From NCBI GenBank assembly GCA_011390465.1, contig JAABSH010000035.1:1-40754 (forward strand): 40,754 bases of DNA, written 5' to 3'. Positions 105 through 20,295 of the stretch are shown here, one piece after another. A model generated the notes under the pieces. The model was not told the DNA's origin and ran no database searches. It was given only the letters and a program-made list of their open reading frames with translations. A program made the position numbers and the translations under genes. Position 1 is the first letter of the stretch. Each line of letters begins with the position of its first letter. Source of the stretch: Desulfobacteraceae bacterium. Lineage in GTDB: Bacteria > Desulfobacterota > Desulfobacteria > Desulfobacterales > Desulfosalsimonadaceae.

Positions 105-271
105 GCAATATGACAAAAGACCTATGGTTACAGGCTTTGGGGGTAGAACAAATTTACCCTGTTTGCGAAGCCGTCATTCTTGACTTTTCTTTTGAGAGAC
201 AGTATAAAGCCTCTAAGAATTAATTCCAACCAGGAGAGATTCTATGGTTGACCGTCATATTCTTAAAATCC

Positions 272-529
272 ATGTTCCGGGCATATTTTCTTTCCTGCAC
301 CGTTTGCTTTCTGAATCTCCTTTTGCTGTTGCCCGGCGATACCATGCCCCCCTTCTCTTTTTACCTGTTCCATTTATCCGGTTTAACCGATTTATCGGCC
401 GTGATCACCTTTTCGGCCATTTCGACCGCAGGGTGCGGGGTTTATCCCCGCCCGAAACGGGAGGGCGTAAAGCCCTCCCCTACTGTAGCCGAAACAATGA
501 TCAAGTCCGATTTATCCGGAAGCCTTTGA
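272..529 (+). pseudogene. Possible truncated membrane-protein (VanZ-like?) fragment
   Basis: The frame from the ATG at 272 gives a hydrophobic N-terminus followed by LLLPGDTMPPFSF, which recalls the first membrane helix and PG-x-x-P motif of VanZ-like proteins. The reading frame runs into the palindromic repeat at 431-481 and stops at 529 without further family features. A good Shine-Dalgarno-like AGGAGA sits before an ATG at 244 in another frame, compatible with an old frameshift. The match is short, so this is only a candidate remnant and may be chance. Confidence 0.2.
431..485. repeat. Double-hairpin palindromic repeat
   Basis: Two adjacent GC-rich hairpins. GGGTGCGGGG-tttat-CCCCGCCC lies at 431-453 and GGGAGGGC-gtaaa-GCCCTCCC at 460-480, followed by CTACTGTAG. 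The layout is that of a dispersed intergenic repeat. It could also act as a bidirectional terminator shielding the hdr promoter from upstream transcription, although it lacks a clear T-run. Confidence 0.6.
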
Positions 530-553
530 CATAACCGCTATGATTGATATGAT
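526..553 (+). promoter_or_regulatory. Predicted sigma70 promoter of the hdr operon
   Basis: A perfect -35 box TTGACA (526-531), a 16-base spacer and a -10 box TATGAT (548-553). Transcription would start near 560, giving a leader of about 90 bases before the ATG at 650, which has GGGGAAAGGGG upstream as ribosome-binding site. This is the best promoter seen in front of the electron-transfer operon. Confidence 0.65.
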
Positions 554-649
554 TTTATCCGGATCGCAACACATTCAGCATTGCAAATCAGTAAACCCTC
601 ATCGCAAGCATAAACAACTGTCCATGCCGCAGGGGAAAGGGGACGCTTC

Positions 650-3600
650 ATGTCACTGAGAATCGGCTGTTATATCTGCCACTGCGGCATCAATATCGCT
701 CACAAGGTCCGGGTGGCGGAAGTGGCGGAATTTGCCGCATCTCTGAATGAAGTTGCGGTGGCCCGGGATTATAAATTCATGTGTTCGGATCCGGGCCAGG
801 AACTCATTGAAAACGACATCCGGAATCTCAACCTCGACCGGGTGGTGGTGGCGTCCTGCTCTCCCCGGCTGCATGAAAAAACATTCCAGGCAGCCTGCCG
901 CCGGGCCGGCCTGAATCCCTTTATGTTTCAGATGGCCTCAATCCGGGAACAGGTTTCCTGGGTCACGGCAGATGAAGACGAGGCCACGGAAAAAGCCAAA
1001 ACCCTGGTGGCCGGGGCCATCAACCGGGTGAAATTTCATCACCGGCTCGAGACCCGGCATGTGGGTGTGCATCCGGACGTGCTGGTGGTGGGAGGCGGCA
1101 TTGCGGGCATGCAGGCGGCCCTGGACATCGGAAACGCAGGCCTTACGACCTATCTGGTGGAAAAATCCACTACTATCGGCGGCCACATGCTGCAGTTTGA
1201 CAAGACCTTTCCCACCCTGGACTGCGCTGCCTGCATCGGCACCCCCAAAATGGTGGAAGTGGCCCAGAACCCGAATATCAGGCTGTATTCCTATTCAGAA
1301 ATCACGGATGTATCCGGCTACATCGGCAATTACACGGTTAAAGTGCTTCACAAGCCCCGTTTTATCATCGAAGACCGGTGCACCGGCTGCGGGGAATGCG
1401 CCAAGGTCTGCCCGGTAACGTTCCCCAGTGAATGGGATGAATCCTTGGGAAACCGGAACGCCATTTTCAGGGCCTTTCCCCAGGCCGTTCCCATCACCTT
1501 TTGCATTGATAAAAACGATACCGCTCCCTGCGTGACTGCCTGCCCGGCCCATGTCAACGTCCAGGGCTATATCCAGCTCATCAAAAAAGGCGAATACGAA
1601 AAAGCAATTCGCCTCATCATGGAACGGATCCCCCTGCCCGGTGTTCTGGGCCGGGTCTGCCCCCATCCCTGTGAATATGAATGCCGCCGGCAGCAGGTGG
1701 ATGAACCCCTTGCCATCCGGGATCTGAAACGGTTTGCCGCGGATCAGGTGGATTTTTCCCGCCTTGAAATTCCGGAAATCCCGGACCGAAAAGAAAAAAT
1801 CGCGGTGATCGGCTCCGGGCCGGCCGGACTGACGGTTGCTTATGACCTGCGGCTTCTGGGATACCAGGTGACGATTTTTGAAGCAGCGGAGAACCCCGGG
1901 GGCATGCTGCGGTACGGAATTCCGGATTACCGGCTGCCCCAGCAGGTGCTGGACGCGGAAATCGATTATATCCGGCGCATGGGGGTGAACATCACCACCG
2001 GCGCCACCCTGGGAAGGGATTTTTCCCTGACGGATCTCAAAAACGACGGATTTTCATGCGGGTTTCTGGGGATCGGGGCCCAGCAGGCCCTGGCCCCTGG
2101 CATTGCGGACGAGGAAACCCCCGGCGTCATGGATGCGGTGGAATTTTTACAGGCCGCCAACCAGGGAAACCATGCCATGCCGGGAAAGCAGGTGGCCGTG
2201 ATCGGCGGCGGCAACGCGGCCCTGGACGCGGCCCGGGTGGCCCGGCGCATGGGGTCCGATGTCACCCTTGTTTACCGGCGCAGCCGGGCCCAGATGCCGG
2301 CCTATGAAGATGAAATTATCGGCGCCCTGGCAGAGGGCATCGAGCTTAAACTCCTTACCACACCGGTGCGGGTGCTGGCGAAAAAGGGTCGGGTCAGCGG
2401 GCTGGAATGCATGGAAAACCGGCTGGGACCGGCGGATTCCAGCGGCAGACAGCGGCCGGAACCCATTGACAATTCCAATTTCATTCTTCCCTGTGACGCT
2501 GTTATCACAGCCATTGGCCAACAGATTCACTTGCCGGAAGAACTCGCGAAAATGCTGGACTGTCCCCCAAACGCCACCATCAAAACAGACCGATTTACCA
2601 TGCAGACGCCAGTTCCCTGGCTGTTTGCCGCGGGAGACGCTGTCACCGGGCCGGCCACGGTCATTGAAGCGGTAGCCGGGGCCCACAAGGCGGCCGCTGC
2701 CATGCACGCCTTTGTATCCGGCTTTGTATCTGGCCAGGATCTCACAGAATATCAACATCAGAAAATGCCCGCACCGTTTGCGGAAAGTCCGGTTCACAAA
2801 CCCATTCCCGAACACATCATGGCGGCCCCGCGCCAGCATCAGGCCCACCTTGCGCCGGCGGTCCGCAGTGCCGGTTTTGACGAAGAAGCCCTGGGGCTGA
2901 GTTCTGATCAGGCCATGGCGGAATGCGGCCGGTGCCTCAACTGCCAGGGCTGCTGTGAATGCATGGAATGCGTGTCTGTGTGCGAGGCAAAGGCCATTGA
3001 TCATTCCATGCAGCCATGGGAAGAAGAGATCAAAGTGGGGAGCATTATTCTGACCACGGGCTATGATGTGCTGGATCCCACGCCGATGAAGCAGTTTGGT
3101 TACGGCCGGTTCCCCAATGTTTACACCAGCCTGGAGTTTGAACGGATCAGCAACGCCACCGGTCCCACGGGCGGCGATATCCTGATGCGGGATACGGATC
3201 TCAACTTTACCACAAAACCCAAAAGCGTGGCCCTGCTTCACTGCATCGGCAGCCGGGATGTCAACTACCATGAATACTGCTCCCGGGTCTGCTGCATGTA
3301 CGCGTTAAAATATTCCCATCTCATCAAGGAAAAAACCGGCCACGACACCGAGGTCTATGAATTCTATATTGACATGCGGTGCTTTGGCGAAGGGTATGAA
3401 GAATTTTACCGCCGGTGCCAGGAGGAAGGCACCCGGTTTATCCGGGGCAAGGCCGCGGAAATCACGGATCAGGCCGAAACCCCTGGGGAACAGGGAAAAC
3501 TGGTGGTGATTGCCGAAGACACCCTGTTAGGCCGGGTGGTGCGCGTTCCCGTGGACATGGCGGTGCTGTGCGTGGCCATGGAAGCCCGGGCCGATGCCCG

Positions 3601-4069
3601 GGACGTGGGCCGGATTTTCGGGGTCAACCTGGGGGCGGACGGCTTTTTTCTGGAAGAGCACCCCAAGCTCGGCCCCCTCAATACGGCTACAGACGGCATT
3701 TTTATTGCCGGGGCCTGCCAGTCTCCCAAAGATATTCCGGATACCGTGGCCCAGGCATCGGGGGCGGCGGCCAAATCCCTTTCCATGGCGTCCGCCCAAC
3801 AGGTTCAGGTGCCGTCCACCATTTCCTGGATTGATCCGGATGTGTGCGCCGGATGCCGGGTCTGCATCGGCCTGTGCCCCTATTCCGCCATTGAATTTGA
3901 TGAACGGCGCCATATTTCCGTGGTCAATGAAGCGGTATGCAAAGGCTGCGGCAGCTGCGCCGGCTTCTGCCCCAGCGGGGCCGCCCGCATCCGGCATTTT
4001 GAGAAAAAACAGATTTTCGCGGAATTTGAGGGCATCATGGATGCCCTCTATCTAACGGCAACACCCTAA
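650..4069 (+). CDS. hdrA: HdrA-like protein with inserted NfnB/GltD-like flavoprotein module (HdrA1)
   Basis: A flavin- and Fe-S-containing subunit of a cytoplasmic heterodisulfide-reductase-type electron-bifurcating complex, 1139 aa against about 650 for plain HdrA. The HdrA N-terminal domain spans residues 1-140 and the FAD Rossmann motif GGGIAG is near 148. The conserved CAACIGTPK follows at 192-200 and a first ferredoxin cluster CTGCGECAKVCP at 244-255. Residues about 265-755 then form a complete glutamate-synthase-small-subunit/NfnB-like module: Cys clusters CVTACPAH (294) and CPHPCEYEC (337), GSGPAG (388), GGGNAA (519) and AAGDAVTGPATV (660). HdrA resumes with a Cys-rich stretch (759-778), IGSRD and CSRVCC (about 867-882), and ends with two [4Fe-4S] motifs (1066-1077 and 1097-1108). 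The inserted module probably oxidises NAD(P)H. First gene of the operon, 14 bases before mvhD. HdrA-NfnB fusions are known in sulfate reducers; the substrate is inferred. Confidence 0.9.
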   Translation: MSLRIGCYICHCGINIAHKVRVAEVAEFAASLNEVAVARDYKFMCSDPGQELIENDIRNLNLDRVVVASCSPRLHEKTFQAACRRAGLNPFMFQMASIREQVSWVTADEDEATEKAKTLVAGAINRVKFHHRLETRHVGVHPDVLVVGGGIAGMQAALDIGNAGLTTYLVEKSTTIGGHMLQFDKTFPTLDCAACIGTPKMVEVAQNPNIRLYSYSEITDVSGYIGNYTVKVLHKPRFIIEDRCTGCGECAKVCPVTFPSEWDESLGNRNAIFRAFPQAVPITFCIDKNDTAPCVTACPAHVNVQGYIQLIKKGEYEKAIRLIMERIPLPGVLGRVCPHPCEYECRRQQVDEPLAIRDLKRFAADQVDFSRLEIPEIPDRKEKIAVIGSGPAGLTVAYDLRLLGYQVTIFEAAENPGGMLRYGIPDYRLPQQVLDAEIDYIRRMGVNITTGATLGRDFSLTDLKNDGFSCGFLGIGAQQALAPGIADEETPGVMDAVEFLQAANQGNHAMPGKQVAVIGGGNAALDAARVARRMGSDVTLVYRRSRAQMPAYEDEIIGALAEGIELKLLTTPVRVLAKKGRVSGLECMENRLGPADSSGRQRPEPIDNSNFILPCDAVITAIGQQIHLPEELAKMLDCPPNATIKTDRFTMQTPVPWLFAAGDAVTGPATVIEAVAGAHKAAAAMHAFVSGFVSGQDLTEYQHQKMPAPFAESPVHKPIPEHIMAAPRQHQAHLAPAVRSAGFDEEALGLSSDQAMAECGRCLNCQGCCECMECVSVCEAKAIDHSMQPWEEEIKVGSIILTTGYDVLDPTPMKQFGYGRFPNVYTSLEFERISNATGPTGGDILMRDTDLNFTTKPKSVALLHCIGSRDVNYHEYCSRVCCMYALKYSHLIKEKTGHDTEVYEFYIDMRCFGEGYEEFYRRCQEEGTRFIRGKAAEITDQAETPGEQGKLVVIAEDTLLGRVVRVPVDMAVLCVAMEARADARDVGRIFGVNLGADGFFLEEHPKLGPLNTATDGIFIAGACQSPKDIPDTVAQASGAAAKSLSMASAQQVQVPSTISWIDPDVCAGCRVCIGLCPYSAIEFDERRHISVVNEAVCKGCGSCAGFCPSGAARIRHFEKKQIFAEFEGIMDALYLTATP

Positions 4070-4083
4070 CCAAAGAGGCTGTC

Positions 4084-4509
4084 ATGACCCAAGCGCATCA
4101 TCCGTTAATCATCGCCTTTGTCTGCAACTGGTGCACCTATACCGCAGCAGACCTGGCCGGCACGTCCCGGCTGGCCTATCCGGAAAACATCCGGCTCATC
4201 CGGGTCATGTGCACCGGCATGGTGGATCCCCAGTATATTATCAAGGCCTTTCTTGAAGGGGCGGACATGGTGCTGGTGAGCGGCTGTCATCCCGGGGACT
4301 GCCATTATATCAACGGCAATTACAAGGCCCGCCGCCGGATAAAACTGCTCAAAGAAATTCTGCCCCGCATCGGCATTGAAAAAGAACGCCTGAAACTCAC
4401 CTGGATCGGGGCCAGCGACGGCATCCAGTTTTCAAAAACCATGCAGGAACTGGTGGTGCAGGCAAAAAAATTAGGCCCCAATCCGGTGAACACCCAAAGC
4501 GTTCGATAA
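4084..4509 (+). CDS. mvhD: MvhD-type [2Fe-2S] iron-sulfur subunit
   Basis: A small (141 aa) electron-transfer protein of the MvhD/FrhD 'hydrogenase iron-sulfur subunit' family, which in methanogens passes electrons from hydrogenase to HdrA. The expected cysteines are visible: CNWC at residues 14-17, Cys43 in VMCTG, and Cys68 and Cys73 in SGCHPGDC. The start ATG follows an AGAGG ribosome-binding site. The gene sits directly after hdrA1 and before an FrhB/FdhB-like gene, with no hydrogenase large subunit nearby. Its donor is therefore more likely the NfnB-like module or the FrhB-like subunit than a hydrogenase. Confidence 0.9.
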   Translation: MTQAHHPLIIAFVCNWCTYTAADLAGTSRLAYPENIRLIRVMCTGMVDPQYIIKAFLEGADMVLVSGCHPGDCHYINGNYKARRRIKLLKEILPRIGIEKERLKLTWIGASDGIQFSKTMQELVVQAKKLGPNPVNTQSVR

Positions 4510-4510
4510 A

Positions 4511-4550
4511 ACCGGAGCGCTGTATAAAAATGACCGCCACCGGAGCGCTG
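4511..4550 (+). repeat. 12-bp direct repeat between mvhD and the frhB-like gene
   Basis: The sequence ACCGGAGCGCTG occurs at 4511-4522 and again at 4539-4550, with a 28-base period, in the 92-base gap before the next gene. It may be a small duplication or part of an mRNA structure. No known regulator site is recognised. Confidence 0.5.
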
Positions 4551-4601
4551 GACTGCAAAACAACAATTTGAGAAGGTATTAAAAACGGAGACATTCGCAC
4601 C

Positions 4602-5750
4602 ATGGCACACACCCTGTTCCTGACATCAGCAGATGAAACCCCCCTTACCCTGATCCGGAATTTTCTCAAATCCGTTTTACAGACAGAATCGGTCCAGGCC
4701 GTGCTTGTGCCGGCAAAACTTTTGCCTTCAGACACCCTCATGCCCCATCTCATCAGTGATCCCGATCTTCTGGCGGGTGCCGACCCCTTAAGCCCTGTCT
4801 TTCCCTTAAATGCCAGCCGAATGGCAGCAAAACTTTCCGTCAAACCCGTGCAGGGAAAAATTGCCATGGTGCTGCGGCCCTGCGAAATCCGGGCCCTGGT
4901 TGAACTGGAAAAGCTGAAACAGGCAAACCTGGAAAACTGCCTCCTCATCGGGGCGGACTGCATGGGCGCTGTTTCTGCCAAAGACCATACAAATATGGAT
5001 CCGCCTGAGAATTTTTCGCCGCCGAAAGAAGAAAACCTGGCCCCTGCCTGCCGGGCCTGCGAGCATTTTGTACCGGAAAACACGGATATCACCATCGGCC
5101 TGTTCGGGATCACCCCAAAAGAGACCATAATGCTCCAGGCCGGCACGGACGCGGGCATGACCCTTCTGAAAAAAATCGCCAAAGACACCGGCCGGCAATT
5201 TACCGAAGATGCATCCGAACGGCAAACAGCAGTGGCGGAAAAACTCAAGCAGCGCATAGGGTACCGGGATGCCATGTTTGCAGCCACCCGTCAGGCCCTG
5301 GACAGTCCGGAAAATTTTGCCCGCTACTTTGAGCGGTGCATCAACTGCTACAACTGCCGGGTGGCCTGTCCGGTCTGCTACTGCCGGGAATGCGTTTTCA
5401 ATACCGATGTATTTGACCACGCGCCTTACCGCTACGTTCAGTGGGCCCGGCGCAAAGGTGCCATCCGGATGCCCGCGGATACGGTTTTCTACCACATGAC
5501 CCGCCTGGCCCATATGAGCCTTTCCTGCGTGGGATGCGGACAGTGTTCCAATGCCTGCCCCAATGACATTCCAGTGATGGAAGTCTTCAGGACCACGGCA
5601 TTTGACGTGCAGCGCGCCTTTGACTATGAGGCAGGCAGAGACCGGGACGACCCCCTGCCGCTTTCCGTGTTCAAAGAAACAGAATTTACCGACATTGTCG
5701 GCATTGAATCCGGGCCTACGGAATCCGCGGGCACCGGAAACAACCCCTGA
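4602..5750 (+). CDS. FrhB/FdhB-like flavin and Fe-S subunit (F420 hydrogenase/dehydrogenase beta family)
   Basis: A 382-aa subunit of the FrhB/FdhB family, whose members bind FAD and exchange electrons with F420 or NAD(P)H. The family motif RPCEIRALVELEKL lies around residue 92. A Cys cluster CINCYNCRVACPVCYCREC lies around 246-264 and a ferredoxin motif CVGCGQCSNACPNDIP around 309-324, predicting at least two [4Fe-4S] clusters. The start ATG lies about 10 bases after GGAGA. In sulfate reducers such subunits sit beside HdrA/MvhD and are thought to form an NADH- or formate-linked entry port. No formate dehydrogenase alpha subunit is in the window, so the electron donor stays open. Confidence 0.85.
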   Translation: MAHTLFLTSADETPLTLIRNFLKSVLQTESVQAVLVPAKLLPSDTLMPHLISDPDLLAGADPLSPVFPLNASRMAAKLSVKPVQGKIAMVLRPCEIRALVELEKLKQANLENCLLIGADCMGAVSAKDHTNMDPPENFSPPKEENLAPACRACEHFVPENTDITIGLFGITPKETIMLQAGTDAGMTLLKKIAKDTGRQFTEDASERQTAVAEKLKQRIGYRDAMFAATRQALDSPENFARYFERCINCYNCRVACPVCYCRECVFNTDVFDHAPYRYVQWARRKGAIRMPADTVFYHMTRLAHMSLSCVGCGQCSNACPNDIPVMEVFRTTAFDVQRAFDYEAGRDRDDPLPLSVFKETEFTDIVGIESGPTESAGTGNNP

Positions 5751-5779
5751 AAACGGAAAAACCTGAACAGGACGATAAA

Positions 5780-8700
5780 ATGAATGAACAGACAACATAC
5801 AATGCCCTGGTCGTCGGTGCGGGCATCAGCGGCATCCGGGCGGCCCTGGACCTAGCCCAGGAAAACCGCCGGGTACTGATCGTCGATAAACGCCCGGCCA
5901 TGGGCGGCATCCTGAGCCAGCTGGATTTTCAGTTTCCGTCCAACCATTGCGGCATGTGCAAAATGCTGCCATTGGTCCGCCGGGACCAGGGGAGCCAGTT
6001 TTGTCTGCGAAAAGGCCTGTTCCATGAAAATATCGATCTTGTTCTGTCTGCCGAACTGAGCGGTCTTTCCGGAGAGCCCGGCAATTTTGCGGTCAAAATT
6101 CATGAAAAACCCACCTGGGTGGACCCTGACCGCTGCGTGGGGTGTGGATTATGCGAAACCGTGTGCCCGGAAACCGTGCCGGATGATTTCAACCGGGGCC
6201 TTTCCACGCACAAAGCCATTTATCTGCCCGTTCCCCACGCGATTCCCAACCCCTATGTGATTGATCTGGCCGCCTGCACCCGGTGCGGGGCCTGCGCGGA
6301 CATCTGTCCCACCGGCGCGGTGATGCTGTCCACGGCGGAGCGCCAAAATTTTCACATCCTGGTAGTGGACGATGAACTGAGCGTCCGGGATTCTTTAAAA
6401 GAATGGCTGACGGAAGAAGGGTTTTCCGCCCACATGGCGGCTTCCGGGGAAGAAGCCCTGGAAAAACTGAAAACCCGGCCCTGTCAACTCATGCTCACGG
6501 ATATAAAAATGCCGGAAATGTCCGGCACTGCGCTTTTGCACGAGGCCAAAAAAGCCTATCCAAATTTGTGCGTGGTCATGATGACGGCTTACGCTACCGT
6601 GGAAACGGCTGTAGAGGCCATGAAAACCGGGGCCGCGGATTACCTGATCAAACCCTTTCAACCGGACACCCTGATCCCCATGGTCATCCGCCTGTACCAG
6701 GACATTGAAGCGGCCCATGACCGGGAACTGACCGTGGAGGCCCTTATTCTTGCCACGGGCACGGGATTTTACCATCCCGCGGATGAAAAAAATATTTTTG
6801 GCTACGGCATTTTCCCCAATGTGGTCACCAACCTTGAATTTGAGCGGATCATCAGCCACACCGGACCCCATGGGGGCGGCCTGAAGCGCCTGGACAACGG
6901 CCGGCCGATCCAAAAAATCGCCTGGATTCAGTGTGTGGGCTCCCGGGACATCCAGAACAATGCGGATTTTTGTTCCACCATCTGCTGCATGGCCGCGGTC
7001 AAAGAAGCAGTGCTTACAAAAACCCTGGCTGCCGGCCGATCCGCCGAAGCGTCAACCAGTCAGTCCACCGGTCATTCAACCGAACAAGCCACCGGTCAGG
7101 TGGAAACCGTGATTTTTTACATGGACATGCGGGCCTGGGGAAAATCGTTTCAGCGATATGTTGACAATGCAATAACCGAACACCAGGTGCGGTTTGAACG
7201 GTGCAGGGTTCATTCTCTTAGCCAGACAAAAGACACCCGAGAACTGGAAGTGGCCTTTCTGGCGGACGATGGCAGCCGCCGCACGGCCCTGTTTGACATG
7301 GTGGTGCTTTCCGTGGGCCAGCGGCCGGCCGATCAGACCGAATCCCTTTCAAAAATCTGCGACCTGCCCCTGACCCCGGCCGGATTTTTTGAAACCCTGC
7401 CCTTTGCCGGGTCCCGCACCCCCCGGGAAGGCATTGTGGCGGCAGGGTCTGCTGCCGGGCTCAAAGATATATCAGAATCCGTTATGCTGGCCTCTGCCGC
7501 GGCCCGGGAAGCCGGGCAGATCATCCACACCAAAACCATTAGCGAAAAAAGGCCGGCGCAAACCACCGAAGACACTGAAACACCCCTGTACCGGGATGTT
7601 TCCAGAGAACCGGTAAGGCTTTTTATCGGCATCTGCACCTGCGGCACCCGCCTGTCAGCCTGTATTCAACCGGATGCCCTGACCCAATGGTTTTCCCTGG
7701 ACCCGGAAATTGTAAAAATATCGTTTGTGGATCAGGTCTGCACGGCCAGCGGATGGGAAAAACTTGCCCGGGAAATATCCGGCACCCGCGCCAACCGGGT
7801 GCTTATCGCTGCCTGCCACCCCTATGTGTTCATCAAAAAAATAACCCGCCTGGCCCGAACATTAGGCATTGCGCCCGATCTCATGGATGTGGCCGATATC
7901 ATGGGGCCGGTGTTCCGGGCCGCTGCTCAAGCGCCGGAAACTCTCTCCGCCTTTGCAGCGGAAGTCTTCAGTACCCTGAACCAGGGCGCGGAACGTCTCA
8001 AGCAGGCCGACCCCACGGCCCCCGACCAGGTCCCGGTCTGCCAGCGGGCCCTTGTCATCGGCGCGGGCATTGCCGGCATGACAGCGGCCCTTGCCCTTGC
8101 AGATGCCGGCCATGAGGTGGATTTGATTGAAAAAACCCATCAACCCGGCGGCAACCTGAACTGGCTGGATCAAACCCTGGAAGGTGCGTCATTGGCTGAT
8201 TTTCTTCAAAAAACCCTGGACCGGATTCAAAAACAGCCCCGGATCACCGTGCACACAACCACCCGGCTCATCGCCTGCAAAGGCCTGGCCGGCCAGTTTC
8301 ATTCAACAATAGAAATCTGTCCGGAAACCGGCGCTGAAACAAAACAGGTCCGCGATCTGGAACATGGCGCCATCATCGTGGCCACCGGCGGGCATGAAGC
8401 CCCCACCACCTCCTTCTGCCACGGCACCCACCCCGCGGTTATCACCCAGAAAACCCTGGAAATACGGCTGCGAAATCAGGAAATAACCCCTGAACAGGCA
8501 GGCACCGTGGTCATGATCCTGTGCGTGGATTCCCGGCAGGAGCCCCGGAATTACTGCTCCCGGGTCTGCTGCCCCACGGCCCTGAAACAGGCCCGGCGCC
8601 TCCAGGACCTGAATCCGGATGCGGCCATCTATGTTCTGTACCGGGACATGATGACCGTGGGATTTTCAGAAACCTATTTTACCCGGGCCAGAGGCGACAA

Positions 8701-9325
8701 TGTCATGTTTATGGCATATGACCCCAAAGCACCCCCCCGGGTAAGCGCGGAAACCGACACCCCGGTGGTTACATTAAAAGAACCGGTGCTCAACCAGCCG
8801 GTGGAAATTTCAGCGGATCTGGTGGTGCTGGCCACCGGCATGGTGCCGGACCTGCCGCATGACCTGGCCCGCGTCCTGGGTATTGATAAAGATAATGACG
8901 GATTTTTTCAGGAAGCAGAATCCAAATGGCGGCCCCTGGATGCCTTGAAGGAAGGCATTTTTGCCTGCGGCACCGTGCTTTCGCCCCGTTCGGCCGCGGA
9001 AGCCGCGGACACGGGCCGGGCCGCGGCCACCCGGGCCATCCGGCTGCTTTCCGCCCCTGCGATCGCTTCGGACAAAACCGTGGCCGTGGTGCGGCACAGC
9101 CTGTGCAGCCTGTGCGAACGCTGCATTGACGCCTGCCCCTATGGGGCCAGGACACTTAATTCAGATCACACCCGGATTCTGGTAAACACTCTCATGTGCC
9201 AGGGGTGCGGGGCCTGCGCCGCCGTCTGCCCCAATGATGCATCCATCCTGCCGGGGCTCTCCGCCCGTCAGATGCTGGAAACCGTTGATGCGGTGTTCGA
9301 ACAGTTGGAACCGGACCGGATGTGA
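5780..9325 (+). CDS. hdrA: Tandem HdrA-like protein with embedded REC receiver domain (HdrA2)
   Basis: A 1181-aa fusion. The first HdrA half starts at the FAD fold (GAGISG, residue 13), lacks the usual N-terminal domain, and has CGMCKM (57) and two ferredoxin motifs (119-130 and 166-177). A complete response-regulator receiver follows at about 190-312: acidic pair D197-D198, phospho-acceptor D241 in LTDIKMP, T269 and K291, all conserved. The HdrA flavin domain resumes at LILATGTGF (323) and runs to about 590. A second HdrA unit spans 610-1181, with N-terminal domain, GAGIAG (761), CSRVCC (926) and two C-terminal [4Fe-4S] motifs (1109-1120 and 1140-1151). The REC domain lies exactly where HdrA1 carries its NfnB module. 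Ribosome-binding site AGGA. It should form the core of the complex with HdrB and HdrC. The REC suggests phosphorylation-gated electron flow, which is inference. Confidence 0.9.
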   Translation: MNEQTTYNALVVGAGISGIRAALDLAQENRRVLIVDKRPAMGGILSQLDFQFPSNHCGMCKMLPLVRRDQGSQFCLRKGLFHENIDLVLSAELSGLSGEPGNFAVKIHEKPTWVDPDRCVGCGLCETVCPETVPDDFNRGLSTHKAIYLPVPHAIPNPYVIDLAACTRCGACADICPTGAVMLSTAERQNFHILVVDDELSVRDSLKEWLTEEGFSAHMAASGEEALEKLKTRPCQLMLTDIKMPEMSGTALLHEAKKAYPNLCVVMMTAYATVETAVEAMKTGAADYLIKPFQPDTLIPMVIRLYQDIEAAHDRELTVEALILATGTGFYHPADEKNIFGYGIFPNVVTNLEFERIISHTGPHGGGLKRLDNGRPIQKIAWIQCVGSRDIQNNADFCSTICCMAAVKEAVLTKTLAAGRSAEASTSQSTGHSTEQATGQVETVIFYMDMRAWGKSFQRYVDNAITEHQVRFERCRVHSLSQTKDTRELEVAFLADDGSRRTALFDMVVLSVGQRPADQTESLSKICDLPLTPAGFFETLPFAGSRTPREGIVAAGSAAGLKDISESVMLASAAAREAGQIIHTKTISEKRPAQTTEDTETPLYRDVSREPVRLFIGICTCGTRLSACIQPDALTQWFSLDPEIVKISFVDQVCTASGWEKLAREISGTRANRVLIAACHPYVFIKKITRLARTLGIAPDLMDVADIMGPVFRAAAQAPETLSAFAAEVFSTLNQGAERLKQADPTAPDQVPVCQRALVIGAGIAGMTAALALADAGHEVDLIEKTHQPGGNLNWLDQTLEGASLADFLQKTLDRIQKQPRITVHTTTRLIACKGLAGQFHSTIEICPETGAETKQVRDLEHGAIIVATGGHEAPTTSFCHGTHPAVITQKTLEIRLRNQEITPEQAGTVVMILCVDSRQEPRNYCSRVCCPTALKQARRLQDLNPDAAIYVLYRDMMTVGFSETYFTRARGDNVMFMAYDPKAPPRVSAETDTPVVTLKEPVLNQPVEISADLVVLATGMVPDLPHDLARVLGIDKDNDGFFQEAESKWRPLDALKEGIFACGTVLSPRSAAEAADTGRAAATRAIRLLSAPAIASDKTVAVVRHSLCSLCERCIDACPYGARTLNSDHTRILVNTLMCQGCGACAAVCPNDASILPGLSARQMLETVDAVFEQLEPDRM

Positions 9326-9363
9326 ACCCGAAACCAGACAGAAACCTGAATTCAAGGAAAAAC

Positions 9364-9909
9364 ATGAAGAATACCCATGCCCGGCAACCGCTGAAATCAG
9401 TCAGAAACATGGTCCAGGCCTGCATCCAGTGCGGCACCTGCACCGGTTCCTGCCCCAATGCCTTTGCCATGGACCATACCCCCCGGCAGTTGTGGCAGAT
9501 GCTTTTAAACGACCGGCCCCGGGATGCCATCACCAGCAAAACTTTTATCCTGTGTTCTTCCTGCTACTACTGCACCCTGCGCTGTCCCCGGGGGCTGCCC
9601 CTTACCGATGCCATGGCAGCGCTCACCCGGCTGGCAAAAACCGAAAACCCGGGCGGTTTCAAAAAAAGCCAGGCGTTTTTTCATCAGTTTCTTGAAAGCG
9701 TCCGGCGCCACGGCCGGGTGAATGAATCCGAACTGATGACCCTTTTTTTCATGGAAGCAAAAGACCCGGTGCTGCCTTTTGCGTACGCAAATCTGGGAAT
9801 AAAATTTTTGCGGAAAAACAAAATCCGCCTCCCTTTTGTCAAACAGAAACCCTCCCGGGGGCTTGACAAAATTTTTGAAAAAGTGCGGGAACTGGAGACC
9901 CATTCATGA
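9364..9909 (+). CDS. hdrC: HdrC-like iron-sulfur subunit
   Basis: A 181-aa protein with two [4Fe-4S] motifs, CIQCGTCTGSCPNAF and CSSCYYCTLRCPRGLP, in the arrangement of HdrC, which wires HdrA to HdrB. The ATG at 9364 is preferred because AAGGA precedes it at the right distance. A GTG at 9322, which would overlap the end of hdrA2, would add 14 polar residues. The stop overlaps the hdrB start by four bases (ATGA), indicating translational coupling. Confidence 0.9.
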   Translation: MKNTHARQPLKSVRNMVQACIQCGTCTGSCPNAFAMDHTPRQLWQMLLNDRPRDAITSKTFILCSSCYYCTLRCPRGLPLTDAMAALTRLAKTENPGGFKKSQAFFHQFLESVRRHGRVNESELMTLFFMEAKDPVLPFAYANLGIKFLRKNKIRLPFVKQKPSRGLDKIFEKVRELETHS

Positions 9910-10826
9910 AATATTTTTATTATCCCGGGTGCTCCCTTGAAGGCACGGCCAGAGAATACAACCTGTCCACACTCTCCCTGATGAACGCCCTTGGCGCGGA
10001 GCTCATTGAAATTGAAGACTGGACCTGCTGCGGGGCCAGCGCGGCCCACAGCCTTTCCGAGCTCCTCGCCTGGGTGCTGCCCGCCCGGGTCCTGGCCCTT
10101 GCGGAAAAAATGAACCGGGAGCGCAAAAAACCACTGGACATCCTGGTGCCCTGCAGCGCCTGCTACCTGAATCTGAAAAAAGTCTCCGAAACCTGCCGGA
10201 CCGACACCGGCCTGCTTGAAAAAATCAATACCGTGCTGGCAGTCGAAGGGCTTTTTCTGGAAAACCGGCTTATTGTCCGGCATCTGCTGGATGTATTGAC
10301 CCGGGACATTGATATTTCAGATATTAAACAAAACGTGCAAAAATTTTTTACCGGCTTTTCCGTGGCACCCTATTATGGGTGTCAGTGCCTGCGGCCCTAT
10401 GCCGTGTTTGATGACCCGGAACGTCCCGAATCCATGGAGCCCCTGATCCGGGCCGCCGGTGCCGCCGTGCACCCTTGGAAAATGGGGGGCCGGTGCTGCG
10501 GGGCCGCCCACATGACCACCCACCCGGAAACCGGCCGGGCCCTGGTGGCGGCCATTCTGGCCGGGGCCCGGGGATCCGACATGATTGTGACGGTATGCCC
10601 CATGTGCCAGATGAACCTGGAAGGATTTCAGAAAAAAATCGCCAAAACCGGCCCCGGCATTTCCGAAACCACGATTCTTTATCTTCCCCAGTTCCTTGGC
10701 ATGGCCCTGGGCCTGCCGGAAAGTGCGGTTCGCACGGATTTAAACCTTTGCATCACCCCGGGATTTCGCAAAAAATATCAGCCGCTGACGGCAAAACCGC
10801 TGTCCGGGGCACAGCCGTCAGCATAA
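9906..10826 (+). CDS. hdrB: HdrB-like disulfide-reducing subunit
   Basis: A 306-aa HdrB-type catalytic subunit with two CCG domains. The first has DWTCCGAS (about 37-44) followed by CSACYLNL. The second has YYGCQCLRP, GGRCCGAAH and CPMCQMNL. These cysteines bind the non-cubane [4Fe-4S] clusters that cleave heterodisulfides in methanogens. In a sulfate reducer the partner could be a DsrC trisulfide/disulfide or another thiol carrier; which one cannot be read from sequence. It overlaps hdrC by four bases and ends 9 bases before the Usp gene, so both lie in one transcription unit. Confidence 0.92.
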   Translation: MKYFYYPGCSLEGTAREYNLSTLSLMNALGAELIEIEDWTCCGASAAHSLSELLAWVLPARVLALAEKMNRERKKPLDILVPCSACYLNLKKVSETCRTDTGLLEKINTVLAVEGLFLENRLIVRHLLDVLTRDIDISDIKQNVQKFFTGFSVAPYYGCQCLRPYAVFDDPERPESMEPLIRAAGAAVHPWKMGGRCCGAAHMTTHPETGRALVAAILAGARGSDMIVTVCPMCQMNLEGFQKKIAKTGPGISETTILYLPQFLGMALGLPESAVRTDLNLCITPGFRKKYQPLTAKPLSGAQPSA

Positions 10827-10835
10827 GGAGGCACC

Positions 10836-12152
10836 ATGTTCAAAAAAATACTACTGGCCGCCACCCTGGCGGAGGACAGCAGAGGCGCCGCCAATCTTTC
10901 TTTTGCCCTGGCCCGGCCCAGCAGTTCCCGATTGTTTGTGTTTCATGCCTACGGCCCGGACGAGGCCGGCTGGAGCAGCATCCGCCACTTGTCCGCCTCC
11001 GGCAAGGTCAAAGCAGCGGAAGAACAGATCATTGCCGGTTTTGAAGAAGCGCTGGACGCCATTGAAAATTATACCATCACCGTGGTTCCGGGGGTGCCCC
11101 ATGAAGAAATTCTGCGCTTTGCCCGGAAAAAGCAGGCGGATCTGATTGTCATGGGCCCGCACCGGGTGCGTGCCGACCAGCCGCGCATCTGGGGCATGAC
11201 CGGCTCCACCCTTCAGAAAGTCAGCCTCCGGGCCCGCTGCCCGGTGATGATTGTGCCCCCGGACGTTCCCCGGATTTATCCGTCCGGTCATATTGATCTT
11301 TCCGAGGCAGACCGGGCCAATTTTCACATCCTGATTGTGGATGACGAACTTTCCCTTCGGGATTCACTCAAAGAATGGTTGTCTGAAGAAGGATTTTCCG
11401 CGCACACGGCGGCCTCCGGGGAAGAAGCCCTTGAAATACTGGCCGCGAAACCCTGCCATCTCATGCTCACGGATATCCGCATGCCCGGAATGGACGGCGT
11501 GGCCCTGCTGCACCAGGCAAAAAAAAAGCATCCTGAGCTGGCAGTGGTGATGATGACCGCCTACGCCACCATTGACACGGCCGTGGACGCCATGAAACAG
11601 GGGGCCCTGGATTATCTGGTAAAACCCTTTGATCCTGAGCTGCTGATTCCCAAAGTGAGAAAAATCCACGAGGATTATGAAGTGACCCGGGGACGGCTCA
11701 AAGTGGCGTTTTCCAATATTGTGCTGGCAACGGATTTCAGCCGGCCCGCCCATTGCGCGTTTAATTTTGCAGCAGACATTGCCCGGTTCTATGAGGCCCG
11801 GCTCCATATTTTTCATGCCCTGCCGATGTCTGAAGAAACCAGCGCCGGATGCTCCCAGGAATTGATTGAAAAAAATATTGCAGATGCACTGGCGCGCATG
11901 AAACAAGATTACCTCCCGCCCCTTAAAGACGCAGTGCCCTTTTCCCTGGAATCCTGGGAAGGGGTTCCCCATATGGAAATCCTTAAATTCGCCCGCTGGC
12001 GGCACGCGGATTTGATTATCATGGCCCATCATTCCAGGGAAAAAGATCCGGAAAAAGCCCTGCTTGGCTCCACCGTTATCAAAGTGGCTTCCGGGGCCCG
12101 GTGTCCGGTGCTCAGCATCAACCGGGACTTTATGCCCAGCTGCGGGGCTTAG
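10836..12152 (+). CDS. Usp-REC-Usp protein (universal stress domains flanking a receiver domain)
   Basis: A 438-aa three-domain protein. Usp domain 1 (residues 1-142) ends with the GSTLQKV-x-CPVMIVPP nucleotide-site pattern. A REC domain (about 162-285) has D169-D170, phospho-acceptor D213 in LTDIRMP, T241 and K263. Usp domain 2 (about 290-430) ends with LLGSTVIKV and CPVLSIN. A perfect AAGGAGG ribosome-binding site precedes the ATG. By hand alignment the REC matches the one inside HdrA2 at about 85 of 113 residues, with long runs of shared codons, so one copy probably arose from the other. It has no output DNA-binding domain. It could be a phosphate sink, a scaffold or a competitor for the kinase that phosphorylates HdrA2. 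Confidence 0.88.
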   Translation: MFKKILLAATLAEDSRGAANLSFALARPSSSRLFVFHAYGPDEAGWSSIRHLSASGKVKAAEEQIIAGFEEALDAIENYTITVVPGVPHEEILRFARKKQADLIVMGPHRVRADQPRIWGMTGSTLQKVSLRARCPVMIVPPDVPRIYPSGHIDLSEADRANFHILIVDDELSLRDSLKEWLSEEGFSAHTAASGEEALEILAAKPCHLMLTDIRMPGMDGVALLHQAKKKHPELAVVMMTAYATIDTAVDAMKQGALDYLVKPFDPELLIPKVRKIHEDYEVTRGRLKVAFSNIVLATDFSRPAHCAFNFAADIARFYEARLHIFHALPMSEETSAGCSQELIEKNIADALARMKQDYLPPLKDAVPFSLESWEGVPHMEILKFARWRHADLIIMAHHSREKDPEKALLGSTVIKVASGARCPVLSINRDFMPSCGA

Positions 12153-12162
12153 GGAAAAGCCC

Positions 12163-13716
12163 ATGCAATCGCCTCCGCCCTGGAAAATTGTGCTGATCGA
12201 CGATGAAGAAAGCATCCGGAAGATCACGGCCATTTCTCTGGAAGACTGGGGCTTTCAGGTCAAAACCGCGGAAAACGGGCAAAACGGCATTGACCTGTGC
12301 CGGGAATTTGCCCCCCAGATTGTCATTACAGACATTAAAATGCCGGGCATGGACGGGCTGGCGGTGCTGGAGGCCCTGAAAACCCGTCAGCCGGAAATCG
12401 AAGTGATTGTCATGACCGCGTTCGGGGATATGGATATGGCCATCCGGGCCATGCAGCTGGACGCGTCGGATTTTATCACCAAGCCCGTCAATGACACCGC
12501 CCTCAGTCTTGCCCTGAACCGGGCAAAAGAACGGTTTTCATCCAAAAAACGGCTCAAGGAATACACCACCCTGCTGGAAACCGGATGGTCCTCCGCCACC
12601 CGGTCGCTTATGAAAAACTTTGCCTTTCAGCAGCAGGTCATCGACAGTTCCATAAACGGCATTATCGCTGCCGGCCCGGATGACATCATTAAACTCATGA
12701 ACCCCAGCGCCCGGTCCATACTGGGTTGCGAAAAAGACGAATCCCGCCCCCGACTCGGCCTAGCCGATATTTTTGATCCGTCCGAATACCGGCAAATTAT
12801 CCAGCATCTGGACGGCGCATCCCATGGCGGGAAAAACAAAATCAACCTTATGGAAACCGTGATCAAAGACCGCCGGGGCGCTCAGATACCGGTTCAGATT
12901 TCCGCCAGCAGATTGTTTGAAGAAAACCGAAAAAACGGCATCCTCTTCTGCGTCCGGGATTTACGGGAACTGCGGCGAATCGAACAGCAGATGGCGGACC
13001 AGGAACAGATTCTGCATCAGGACAAAATGATCTCCCTGGGCAAACTGGCCGCCAGCATGGTTCATGAAATCAACAACCCGCTTTCCGGCATTCTCAATTA
13101 CCTGAGGCTCATGGCAAAAATCGTGAGCAAAGGCATGGCGCCGGAAAAAATCGAAAAATTCGGCCGGTATCTGGAGATTGCCATCACGGAAACCGACCGG
13201 TGTTCCCGGATCGTATCCAACCTGCTCACATTTTCCAGAAAATCCGATATGTCTTTTTCACCGGTGGATGTAAGGGATCTCATTCACCGGTGCGAACTGC
13301 TGAGCCGGCATAAACTGGAGCTTCAGCATGTTTCTCTGCACGTTGAGACACCCCCTGACATCCCCCGGATTCAGGCGGATGCCAACCAGATCCAGCAGTG
13401 CATCATCAATCTGATTTTCAACGCCCTGGATGCCATGCCGGACGGCGGTGCCATCACTGTGGGGGCGGCCTATGACCCGGCCAGAAAACAGGTGGCCGTG
13501 CACGTCCAAGACACCGGCACCGGCATTGACCCCAAAGACCTGCCCCATATTTTCGAACCCTTTTACACCACCAAAGACGCCGGCTACGGCGTAGGACTGG
13601 GTCTATCCACGGTTTACGGTATTATGGAGCGTCACGGCGGCACCGTTCGGGTGGCGCAGACCTCACATCAGGGTACCTGTTTTGTGCTGGTGTTCACTCA
13701 CCTGGCAGACGACTGA
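12163..13716 (+). CDS. Cytoplasmic hybrid histidine kinase, REC-PAS-HisKA-HATPase
   Basis: A 517-aa soluble kinase starting at the ATG at 12163, after AGGGAAA and 10 bases past the usp stop; an upstream in-frame start would overlap the Usp gene. An N-terminal receiver (residues about 7-125) has D13-D14 and phospho-acceptor D57. A PAS domain spans roughly 155-275, and a short coiled coil leads into the HisKA domain with H301 in MVHEINNPL. The HATPase_c domain has an N box (LIFNALDAM), G1 (DTGTGI) and G2 (GVGLGLS). There are no membrane segments. Its position right after two REC-containing proteins makes it a candidate partner of HdrA2 and Usp-REC-Usp. The N-terminal REC suggests that it is itself a target of the next kinase. 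Confidence 0.9.
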   Translation: MQSPPPWKIVLIDDEESIRKITAISLEDWGFQVKTAENGQNGIDLCREFAPQIVITDIKMPGMDGLAVLEALKTRQPEIEVIVMTAFGDMDMAIRAMQLDASDFITKPVNDTALSLALNRAKERFSSKKRLKEYTTLLETGWSSATRSLMKNFAFQQQVIDSSINGIIAAGPDDIIKLMNPSARSILGCEKDESRPRLGLADIFDPSEYRQIIQHLDGASHGGKNKINLMETVIKDRRGAQIPVQISASRLFEENRKNGILFCVRDLRELRRIEQQMADQEQILHQDKMISLGKLAASMVHEINNPLSGILNYLRLMAKIVSKGMAPEKIEKFGRYLEIAITETDRCSRIVSNLLTFSRKSDMSFSPVDVRDLIHRCELLSRHKLELQHVSLHVETPPDIPRIQADANQIQQCIINLIFNALDAMPDGGAITVGAAYDPARKQVAVHVQDTGTGIDPKDLPHIFEPFYTTKDAGYGVGLGLSTVYGIMERHGGTVRVAQTSHQGTCFVLVFTHLADD

Positions 13717-13769
13717 ATGATAGGCGAAAAAGCCCGGAACGGAAAAAACAAAAACAGAAAGAGCAACAC

Positions 13770-16133
13770 ATGATGCCCCTGAAATATCTCCGGGACAGTT
13801 TGGCATATAAACTGATTTTTGCCGTCGGCCTCACCGTCCTTGCCACTGCCCTGCTGTTTGCTTTTTTCATCATCTCCTATGAAAAAAACAAGGCCATGGA
13901 AACCATCACGGCCGAAGCCAGCCGCCTCAGCACCACAATTCTTCTGGGCACCCATTACGCCATGATGCTCAACGCCAGGGACGACATCAACCAGATTATT
14001 CAAAACATTGCCCGGCAGGAAGAAATCAAAAATATCCGCATTTTCAACAAGGCCGGAGAGATTCATTTTTCAAACACCACAAATGAAGTGGGCCGGGTCA
14101 CCAACATCAAAGATGAAGCCTGCTATGTCTGCCACAAGACTTCCCCGCCCCTGGAAACCCTGGAACTGGACCAGCGCAAACGCATTATTCCGTCAAGAGA
14201 CGGATACCGGCTCATGGGAATGATCAGCCCGATTTATAACGCGCCCGGCTGCGCCCGGTCCTGTCATTTTCATCCGGCAGACAAAAAAGTGCTGGGTGCC
14301 CTGGACCTGGTGGTGTCTCTGGAACAAACCGACCGACAGATCGCGTTCTATGAAAAAGGCCTGCTTTTTTTCGCCCTGTGCCTTTTTCTGGTCTGTGCCG
14401 CCATCATTGGGCTTCTGGTGCTCCGGTTTGTTAATCAGCCCATCCAGAAACTGATTCGCGGCACCCGGCAGATCAGCAAAGGCGTCTACGGCCGCATCGA
14501 CGGCATCCGGAACGGTGAATTCCGGCAGCTGGCGGATGCCGTCAACCATATGGCCGAAGAAATCGACCTCAAACAGACCGTGCTCAACGAGCAGCGAAAA
14601 GAATATCAGCAGCTCTTTGAAATGGTGCCCTGCCTGATTACCGTGCAGAACAAAAATTTTGAACTGCTCCAGTACAACCACGAATTTGCGGAACTGTTTC
14701 ACCCGAAGAAAGGCGACTATTGCTTTCACGCCTATAAACGGCGCTCCACCCCCTGCGAGCCCTGTCCCATGAAGGAAACCTTTAAAGACGGCAAGTCCCA
14801 TCACGGGGAGCAGAAAAACATCAACAAAGATGGCGAGCTGTCTTACTGGGCCCTGCGCACCGCGCCCATCAAAAACCGTGGCGGCGAAATCACCGCGGTA
14901 ATGGAAATTTCCGTGGACATCACCCAGATACGGCTGCTGGAAAAAGAAGTTAAAAAATCCGAAGAAAAATACCGGGCCATTTTCAATAATATTCCCAATC
15001 CCCTCTTTGTGCTGGAAAAAGAAAATTTAAACATCATTGACTGCAATGCTTCGGTAAAAACCGTCTACGGCTTCCAAAAATCCGACATTCTCCACCAGAA
15101 ATTCGACATGTTTTTTGATCCGGCCCTCCGCGCCGACAGCATGGAAAAAATCAAAGCCTGCCGCTCCATCAACACGGTGCGGCAGGTGGGAAAAGACGGC
15201 AAAATCATTTTTGCGGACATTCATGTCTCTCCTTCCCAATACCTGGATGCCCGGGTGCTGCTGGTCAGCGCCACCGATATCACCAAACGTCTGGTTGCCG
15301 AACAGCAGTTGATCCAGGCCGGCAAAATGGCCACCCTGGGAGAAATGGCCACGGGCATTGCCCACGAGCTGAACCAGCCCCTGTCGGTAATCAAAAGCGC
15401 CAGCAATTATCTGATGCGCAAGATCAAAGCAAGTGAGGCCGTCCCCGCCGCCATCATGGCCACCATGGCCGAAGAAATGGACGGACAGGTGGACCGGGCC
15501 TCTAAAATCATCAATCACATGCGGGAATTCGGCCGGAAATCCGATGTGATCCGGGAAAAAACCCAGGTCAACACCGCGCTCACCAAAGCCTTTGATATTT
15601 TCCGGCAGCAGCTGAAACTCCGCCAGATCGACGTGATCCAGCACCTGGACCCGGATCTTCCCCTGGTAATGGCGGATGAAAACCGGCTGGAACAGGTTTT
15701 TATCAACCTGCTGATCAATGCCCGGGATGCCATCGAAGCAAAAATGGAAGAAAAAACGGAAGCAAAAACGGGAAAAAAAACAGACGCAAAAATGGAGGAA
15801 TGCGCTGAAAAAACACTGGAACCCCATGAAATAAAAAAACAGATTTTTTTAACCACCCGGACGGAAAATGGCCAGGTGATCGTTGAAATCGAAGACACGG
15901 GCACCGGAATTCCCGCGCCGGTACAAGAAAAAATATTTGAGCCCTTTTTCACCACCAAGGACGCGGGCAAAGGCACGGGCCTGGGTCTTTCCATCTCTTA
16001 TGGCATTGTCAAAGACTACGGGGGAGACATCACCGTGACCCGGGGCCGCCATGGCGGCGGGGCCCTGTTCATCCTGACGTTTCCGCCTGTTTCCGGTCCA
16101 CGGCCTGAAAAAACCCTTAAAAAAAATCATTGA
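13770..16133 (+). CDS. Membrane histidine kinase with predicted c-type heme motifs in its periplasmic sensor domain
   Basis: A 787-aa sensor kinase; either of two adjacent ATGs (13770 or 13773) may be used. A first membrane segment lies at about 13-36 and a periplasmic domain at about 37-190, with CYVCH at 118-122 and a second CARSCH (CxxxCH) at 161-166. A second membrane segment (about 195-220) leads into a HAMP domain. A PAS domain with a CEPCP motif (329) and a second PAS (about 400-510) precede the HisKA domain, with H532 in IAHELNQPL. The HATPase domain carries a Lys/Glu-rich insertion after its N box ([12 protein letters not shown]) and ends with DTGTGI and GTGLGLS. The paired Cys-Cys-His motifs suggest covalent heme, hence redox or gas sensing. 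Third signalling gene of the hdr operon. Confidence 0.88.
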
Positions 16134-16164: not shown

Positions 16165-16177
16165 GTGGTCGGACCAC
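16165..16177. promoter_or_regulatory. FadR/GntR-type operator
   Basis: The palindrome GTGGTCGGACCAC contains TGGT-N3-ACCA, the core typical of FadR-subfamily GntR operators. It lies 57 bases before the gntR start and 31 bases after the kinase stop. This position suggests autoregulation of the gntR gene and of the metabolic genes behind it. Confidence 0.7.
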
Positions 16178-16233
16178 CGGATCATCCTATCGCCCGGGTT
16201 CTTACGTTTATTCTGAGAAAGGCTGCCTGCACC

Positions 16234-16944: not shown

Positions 16945-16991
16945 TCAGCTCACGACGCTGCAATTTAATCTTTAACGCACTGGAGACAATC

Positions 16992-18686: not shown

Positions 18687-18703
18687 AACCGGAGGCGTTT
18701 GAC

Positions 18704-20269: not shown

Positions 20270-20295
20270 CCGGATATTCCGACGCAGGGAACCCA

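Follow-up and report, generated by a model that had tools for sequence, protein, structure and literature searches.

Electron bifurcation has a central place in anaerobic energy metabolism, and we know of no description of a direct post-translational switch acting on it. Here we consider a locus that may encode such a switch. The window, positions 1 to 40,754 of contig JAABSH010000035.1 of a Desulfobacteraceae bacterium (assembly GCA_011390465.1), contains at 5780-9325 on the + strand a gene for a subunit A of heterodisulfide reductase (Hdr), 1181 residues long, with a response-regulator receiver domain (REC) embedded in it, which we call REC-HdrA. The closest described enzymes are archaeal Hdr complexes, for which the inserted ferredoxin is given as the anticipated electron exit and an arm movement seems to gate electron transfer (PMC12350162). 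REC-HdrA resembles the HdrA of the archaeal Mvh-, Elp- and Fdh-HdrABC complexes (PDB IDs: 5odc; 8rvu; 7bkb) in its flavin core, inserted ferredoxin and N- and C-terminal domains, and in having MvhD-, HdrB- and HdrC-like subunits encoded alongside. It departs from them in being a bacterial tandem double of HdrA, in carrying a 120-residue receiver at the ferredoxin/flavin junction, and in being encoded with an HdrL fusion and often with histidine kinases.

A tandem hdrL/hdrA4 copy accompanied by fdhB and hdrB/hdrC is given for locus VIII of Desulfobacterium autotrophicum HRM2 (Strittmatter et al. 2009, PMC2702500). One genome of our set (G192) carries hdrL-mvhD-frhB-REC-hdrA-hdrC-hdrB with a REC match of E = 5.1e-27 in its HdrA; we infer that genome and locus are the same, so that HRM2 probably carries REC-HdrA as the published hdrA4. 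The word "receiver" does not occur in the main text of that paper, nor is a receiver in HdrA mentioned in the passages and legends consulted.

Response regulators with enzymatic output are known, for instance CheB, PleD and RpfG, and in these, as in REC-HdrA, a phosphorylatable REC is covalently joined to an enzyme. What sets REC-HdrA apart is that the output is a Fe-S flavoenzyme of energy metabolism and that the REC is embedded in the enzyme chain. Receivers of the NtrC/AtoC type are among the best-scoring named receiver models for the HdrA REC, all under their cut-offs, but REC-HdrA has no sigma-54 or DNA-binding domain. Because enzyme-output response regulators as such are already known, the novelty is confined to the output class and the embedded position of the receiver. 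An earlier note on this DNA did not know such an insertion to be described, and our targeted full-text searches of an open-access library likewise gave no description.

For the kinase that we propose as partner, the nearest counterparts are the haem-c chemoreceptor sensors GSU0582 and GSU0935, which we take to be members of the Pfam Mcp40H sensor family. The kinase sensor shares with these a CX2-4CH-type motif, two membrane segments and a HAMP domain; unlike them it feeds a histidine kinase and has two motifs instead of one, and its haem binding is putative. In Geobacter and Desulfovibrio, periplasmic sensor domains with haem c are reported to sense redox potential or oxygen (PMC8396549).

The receiver and its host protein

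The receiver occupies residues 190-312 (6347-6715, +), where Pfam Response_reg (PF00072) covers residues 193-301 with E = 7.9e-29 and 100.5 bits against a cut-off of 30.2. The earlier note had described a complete receiver here, placed after the second ferredoxin motif and before the flavin domain resumes, with the phosphorylation residues D197, D198, D241, T269 and K291 all present, and this description holds: the domain begins about 14 residues past C176, the cysteine that closes the second motif of the inserted ferredoxin, extends to the point at which the flavin domain continues, and in the Pfam order stands between the Fer4 motifs and the flavin/NAD(P) domains. The limits that the note gave to the finding (5780-9325, +) are right for the open reading frame, but the conserved operon with its kinase genes reaches beyond them. 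The flanks of the REC align to positions 308 and 319 of 5odc_A, i.e. 11 apart, and in REC-less double HdrAs at loci L036 and L037 (recorded as Dehalococcoidia) and L039 (recorded as Chloroflexi) a few residues are found where the REC sits, the insertion thus standing in for a short linker of these outgroups. The existence of REC-less double HdrAs suggests that the receiver was inserted later into an HdrA that was already double.

The frame of the host protein is open over all 1181 residues, which are laid out as two HdrA halves. Residues 1-600 form an HdrA flavin core with an inserted ferredoxin (residues 118-176; 6131-6307, +; cysteine motifs 119-129 and 166-176), and the second half (residues 611-1175; 7610-9304, +) consists of an N-terminal domain, a flavin fold and a C-terminal 2[4Fe-4S] ferredoxin. 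In a comparison with the PDB, 5odc_A is matched in its flavin core and inserted ferredoxin by residues 5-181 and 317-414, and in its N-terminal and C-terminal regions by residues 611-786 and 924-1173. The cysteines of both ferredoxins (119/122/125/129 and 166/169/172/176 in the inserted one, 1109/1112/1115/1119 and 1140/1143/1146/1150 in the C-terminal one) are unvarying in 16 of 16 aligned rows. A thioredoxin-reductase-like flavin core, the inserted and C-terminal 2[4Fe-4S] ferredoxins and the MvhD/HdrB/HdrC-like neighbours place the protein in the HdrA family, and flavin-based electron bifurcation would be its expected activity. The more specific name HdrA2, used in the earlier note, is not supported, because the NCBIfam HdrA2 model (NF040770) scores 593 bits, under its curated cut-off of 1100.

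We modelled REC-HdrA with AlphaFold2 from 16 sequences, leaving out cofactors and partners (mean confidence, pLDDT, 72.9; pTM 0.68). In the model, residues 191-310 follow the (beta-alpha)5 order, with ten-residue blocks averaging pLDDT 69 to 91, and the last receiver helix (295-311) runs straight into a strand of the flavin domain (313-324). The predicted receiver (189..313) superposes in VIA-align on the receiver 3crn_B with a Z of 22.6 and a root mean square deviation (rmsd) of 1.4 over 125 aligned residues. Residues 6..586 superpose on 151..576 of the HdrA chain 8rvu_a (421 aligned, rmsd 2.8, Z 42.6), and the second half (611..1141) compares with 8rvy_A (Z 37.6, rmsd 4.1). On the strength of the superposition with 8rvu_a the HdrA host fold is predicted to be uninterrupted by the insertion, and the receiver, whose independent folding the earlier note had raised, is modelled as a (beta-alpha)5 fold of its own beside the intact core.

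Distribution and conservation

When 192 genomes of the class were searched with a query across the junction (residues 155-367), the REC-HdrA junction was found in 72. The match spans the query nearly whole in 68 of these; two (G146 and G160) match from inside the query, having lost the inserted ferredoxin and kept the REC, and the remaining two (G185 and G204) cover the later part of the query alone and were counted as truncated copies. The variants lacking the inserted ferredoxin, with the receiver still in place, are at L119:5828-8713 (G160) and L120:6017-8965 (G146). Across the phylum, 395 genomes searched with a limit of E = 1e-36 gave 14 matches across the junction, seven from outside the class, all within the same phylum; five of the seven are ordinary and two (G478 and G586) divergent, at 34-35% identity. 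Relatives give full-length matches to REC-HdrA at 46-70% identity, and the REC is in place in 20 of 20 loci returned. Because the junction recurs in so many independent genomes of the class and in relatives at these identities, an assembly or frameshift artefact is ruled out; neither a fusion error nor absence from relatives, both considered in the earlier note, accounts for the architecture. Equally, the receiver is not general to HdrA, as is clear from REC-less double HdrAs elsewhere and from the source genome itself, where the other three HdrA-type proteins examined (L171, L176, L177) gave no REC match.

Some candidates were set aside. Loci L048-L100 are mostly receivers of other proteins that matched the query through its REC, and were left out as orthologues; open reading frames of 1042-1044 residues with a REC in G073 and G145 were rejected, having no HdrA match. 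We also observed a second kind of fusion, in which an HdrA-like protein bears receivers in tandem at its N-terminus (L174:6743-8509, -, in G187, and contig C95 of G022). It was matched across its junction in two of the 192 class genomes and is apparently independent of the embedded form.

To follow single residues we used 77 distinct sequences, i.e. 91 candidates minus exact duplicates, with the source counted once and the REC-REC-HdrA of L161 dropped. All five phosphorylation residues are kept in 74 of them, which makes an incapacity of the receiver for phosphorylation look unlikely. The three exceptions are G478 and G586, which read D-P-D-A-H at these positions, and G016, with D198E. The first cysteine motif of the inserted ferredoxin is present in 74 rows and the second in 75, the remainder having gaps. 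Mean identity to the source protein is 61% for the REC (56 rows), on par with the inserted ferredoxin (59%, 54 rows) and above the flavin domain that follows (48%, 56 rows); the N-terminal part of the second half reaches 29% (53 to 56 rows). The decayed receivers of G478 and G586 (L111:10416-13961, -; L112:10268-13804, -) make a natural pseudo-receiver, in an operon that is otherwise conserved, is without the HAMP-PAS sensor kinase and has other kinases near.

The sensor kinase

The kinase that we propose for REC-HdrA is a membrane sensor histidine kinase of 787 residues at 13770-16133 (+), with the order periplasmic sensor-HAMP-PAS-PAS-HisKA-HATPase. Two membrane segments, read from the sequence, flank its sensor domain, which has the haem-c-like motifs CxxCH (residues 118-122) and CxxxCHxH (residues 161-168), together at 14121-14273 (+). 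CxxCH and the second motif, as Cx3-4CHxH, are unvarying in 11 of 11 aligned sensors, and Mcp40H-20_sensor (PF21563) matches all 11 weakly, at E 0.01 or better. The periplasmic sensor may bind haem and would probably sense redox conditions.

Of the 192 class genomes 85 have the sensor, 58 among the 72 that carry REC-hdrA and 27 among the 120 that do not (Fisher p = 2e-15, in a test that ignores relatedness); in 47 of the 72, no more than 15 kb separate the sensor from REC-hdrA. A search with the kinase core (E at most 1e-100) adds eight genomes with an adjacent kinase whose sensor is unmatched (G013, G017, G020, G022, G064, G093, G186 and G211), and a HAMP-PAS histidine kinase orthologue is thereby observed within 15 kb in 55 of the 72. 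The sensor kinase is farther off or on another contig in 11, and in six (G016, G144, G156, G163, G187 and G202) no kinase orthologue was found at E 1e-100. Of 46 loci with more than 6 kb of downstream sequence, 34 have a kinase of the HAMP-PAS type on the strand of REC-hdrA and three have it on the other strand; in nine it was not seen.

The three receivers with altered sites, two decayed and one D198E, all come from genomes lacking a close kinase orthologue: the best kinase match in G478 and G586 is 44% identical over about residues 101-509 of 520 (E near 1e-85), and that in G016 33% identical (E = 5e-43). A tie between receiver decay and kinase loss is suggestive only, because kinase-less genomes with intact receiver sites also exist. 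At L136:3835-5004 (-) a REC-HATPase protein of 390 residues, with no HisKA match, adjoins the sensor kinase, and open reading frames resembling it in size and match recur after the kinase at other loci.

Relatives of the receiver

The operon encodes other receivers, and one of them is close to that of HdrA: the REC that lies between two universal-stress-protein (USP) domains is 72% identical to the HdrA REC of the source, compared to 35% for the REC of the hybrid kinase. Helix 1 of the HdrA receivers has the consensus RDSLKEWL and is near constant in 70 HdrA rows (R in 68, S in 67, W in 62); the H-box HELNQPL is found in 51 of 52 kinase rows, both sets including duplicates. At the helix 1 positions R, D, S, E and W, 12 of 12 USP receivers are identical to the HdrA receivers, whereas hybrid receivers differ.

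A similar picture emerges from a quick tree of 167 receivers, in which long branches are unsure. One clade (SH-aLRT support 98) holds 68 HdrA RECs, 13 USP RECs and one HdrA cut by a contig end, and next outward (support 84) come six receivers encoded in the same neighbourhoods; the one of them that was scanned proved to be a REC-sigma54-HTH regulator. The simplest history would be a single NtrC-type receiver inserted into HdrA and later copied into the USP protein, a direction that the tree does not prove.

Operon and neighbouring genes

All named genes from 650 to 16133 are on the + strand, with intergenic gaps of at most 92 bases, in the order hdrL-mvhD-frhB-REC-hdrA-hdrC-hdrB, followed by USP-REC-USP, the hybrid kinase and the HAMP-PAS kinase. 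Upstream of REC-hdrA are an hdrL-like gene (650-4069, +) for a fusion of HdrA and a GltD-type NAD(P)-binding part of 1139 residues (Pfam Pyr_redox_2, Fer4_20 and Fer4; NCBIfam PRK12771 and HdrA2 under cut-off), mvhD/flpD (4084-4509, +; 141 residues, Pfam FlpD E = 5.9e-53) and a gene for a FrhB/FdhB-like Fe-S subunit (4602-5750, +; 382 residues, Pfam FrhB_FdhB_C and Fer4). Downstream follow an hdrC-like gene (9322-9909, +; 195 residues, NCBIfam CoB_CoM_SS_C E = 1.1e-18, under cut-off) and an hdrB-like gene (9906-10826, +; 306 residues with two CCG stretches, Pfam CCG, and NCBIfam SdhE and HdrB under cut-off). The USP-REC-USP protein (10836-12152, +) has 438 residues, and the REC-PAS-HisKA-HATPase hybrid kinase, whose PAS match is weak, occupies 12163-13716 (+), from a likely ATG start inside the open reading frame 12064-13716.

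We counted neighbours at 53 REC-hdrA loci, taking as denominators those with enough flank. hdrL precedes REC-hdrA in 46 of 46, mvhD and frhB do so in 47 of 49, and hdrC and hdrB follow it in 44 of 49; at the loci without hdrCB the next matched gene is the kinase. Elsewhere in the window, the kinases are followed at 16165-21822 by a GntR/FCD regulator, a GlcD-like FAD oxidase, a FGGY kinase and a divergent MTTB-family methyltransferase in a row, and an open reading frame of 850 residues at 30264-32816 (-) has no Pfam match.

Discussion

We favour, somewhat more than we doubt, the reading in which a membrane and probably redox-sensing kinase phosphorylates the HdrA receiver and gates Hdr electron flow. 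REC-HdrA would then be a two-component response regulator whose output is an Hdr-type electron-transfer, and probably electron-bifurcating, flavoenzyme. D241 of the receiver would be phosphorylated by the membrane kinase encoded nearby, often one with a periplasmic sensor bearing c-type-haem motifs. The receiver is seated exactly at the junction of the inserted ferredoxin, the anticipated electron exit in archaeal HdrA, and the flavin domain. The first HdrA half has the flavin core with the exit ferredoxin, the second the arm-type domains, and a receiver in this position is well placed to gate either. Phosphorylation may move the inserted ferredoxin or the second HdrA half, or alter how either docks, and such a change would gate electron flow among NAD(P)H (through HdrL-MvhD-FrhB), ferredoxin and HdrBC, with no need for transcription. 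The phosphotransfer, the gating with its sign (on or off) and the direction of electron flow are the steps that we infer.

Several observations weigh against this reading. On the side of the sensor, the case for haem binding is made by the motifs and by a PF21563 score of 26.9 bits where the cut-off is 27, and fold comparison of the sensor (VIA) ranks WalK/Cache-type sensors first (4ywz, Z 14.9), the solved haem-c sensors not being among its best 50 rows; such top rows are still compatible with kinship to haem-c sensors. Genomic linkage is imperfect: the co-occurrence test counts relatives as if independent, 17 of the 72 REC-hdrA genomes have no kinase inside 15 kb, in G192, the probable HRM2, the sensor kinase is elsewhere on the chromosome and not beside REC-hdrA, and three of the 37 loci with the kinase seen near REC-hdrA have it on the opposite strand. 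Five of the six kinase-less class genomes keep an intact receiver site, as does G252, a 67%-complete genome from outside the class in which the best kinase match is weak. Other kinases and receivers share these neighbourhoods, those of the decayed-receiver genomes included. Because the sensor also occurs without REC-hdrA (the 27 genomes above) and relatives of the kinase accompany USP-REC-USP (at L151, L152, L154 and L158, with no REC-hdrA in the flanks retrieved), the kinase may serve several receivers. Lastly, the structural argument depends on a model from 16 sequences with a mean pLDDT of 72.9, built for the chain without cofactors or partners.

The strongest alternative, which we consider unlikely, is that the receiver governs how the Hdr complex assembles, dimerises or is localised, for example through recruitment to the kinase or membrane or through REC-REC dimers, and affects catalysis indirectly. 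Receivers often work by dimerising via the alpha4-beta5-alpha5 face, the HdrA core fold is unaltered by the insertion in our model, and the presence of a close REC relative between the two USP domains of another operon protein speaks for a portable module; yet a docking tag would not require so specific a placement as the one exactly at the ferredoxin/flavin junction, seen in 72 of the 192 genomes of the class. Distinctly less probable is a role as a phosphate sink or shared receiver that tunes USP-REC-USP or other regulators with little effect on HdrA. The closeness of the HdrA and USP receivers, down to the same helix 1, and the further receivers in the same neighbourhoods are what such a role would lead one to expect, but USP-REC-like matches (open reading frames of 441-493 residues, at least 53% identity) are listed for about a dozen of the 192 genomes versus 72 for REC-HdrA, so that most REC-HdrA genomes show no USP-REC partner, and a sink has no need of being spliced into a redox enzyme of 1181 residues.

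The arrow might also be reversed, with the Hdr module as a redox sensor and the receiver as an intermediate reporting its redox state to the kinase system. PAS and hybrid kinases are abundant in the operon and redox sensing by a domain neighbouring a receiver is conceivable, but receivers are normally inputs, and conservation of the ferredoxin cysteines and of the partner genes mvhD, frhB, hdrC and hdrB is of the kind seen for an enzyme, which leaves this very improbable. Least probable of all is a structural spacer or decaying insertion with no regulatory role, for although G478 and G586, by keeping the operon with a decayed receiver, indicate that HdrA tolerates loss of the receiver site, the five site residues are kept in nearly all rows and conservation of the REC matches that of the ferredoxin.

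If kinase-driven gating of Hdr through its embedded receiver is true, a redox enzyme of energy metabolism joins the outputs of response regulators, and both the switch and its probable kinase can be named. Structural work on Hdr would gain a natural handle, in that a single gating state could be trapped with BeF3 or with mutants of D241. A wider claim, which we make tentatively and whose chances we judge a shade short of even, is that in many Desulfobacterales and their relatives flavin-based electron transfer, probably bifurcation, is switched directly and reversibly by two-component phosphorylation, coupling the outside redox state to electron splitting inside; were it true, energy metabolism would be controlled directly by phosphorylation instead of via gene expression.

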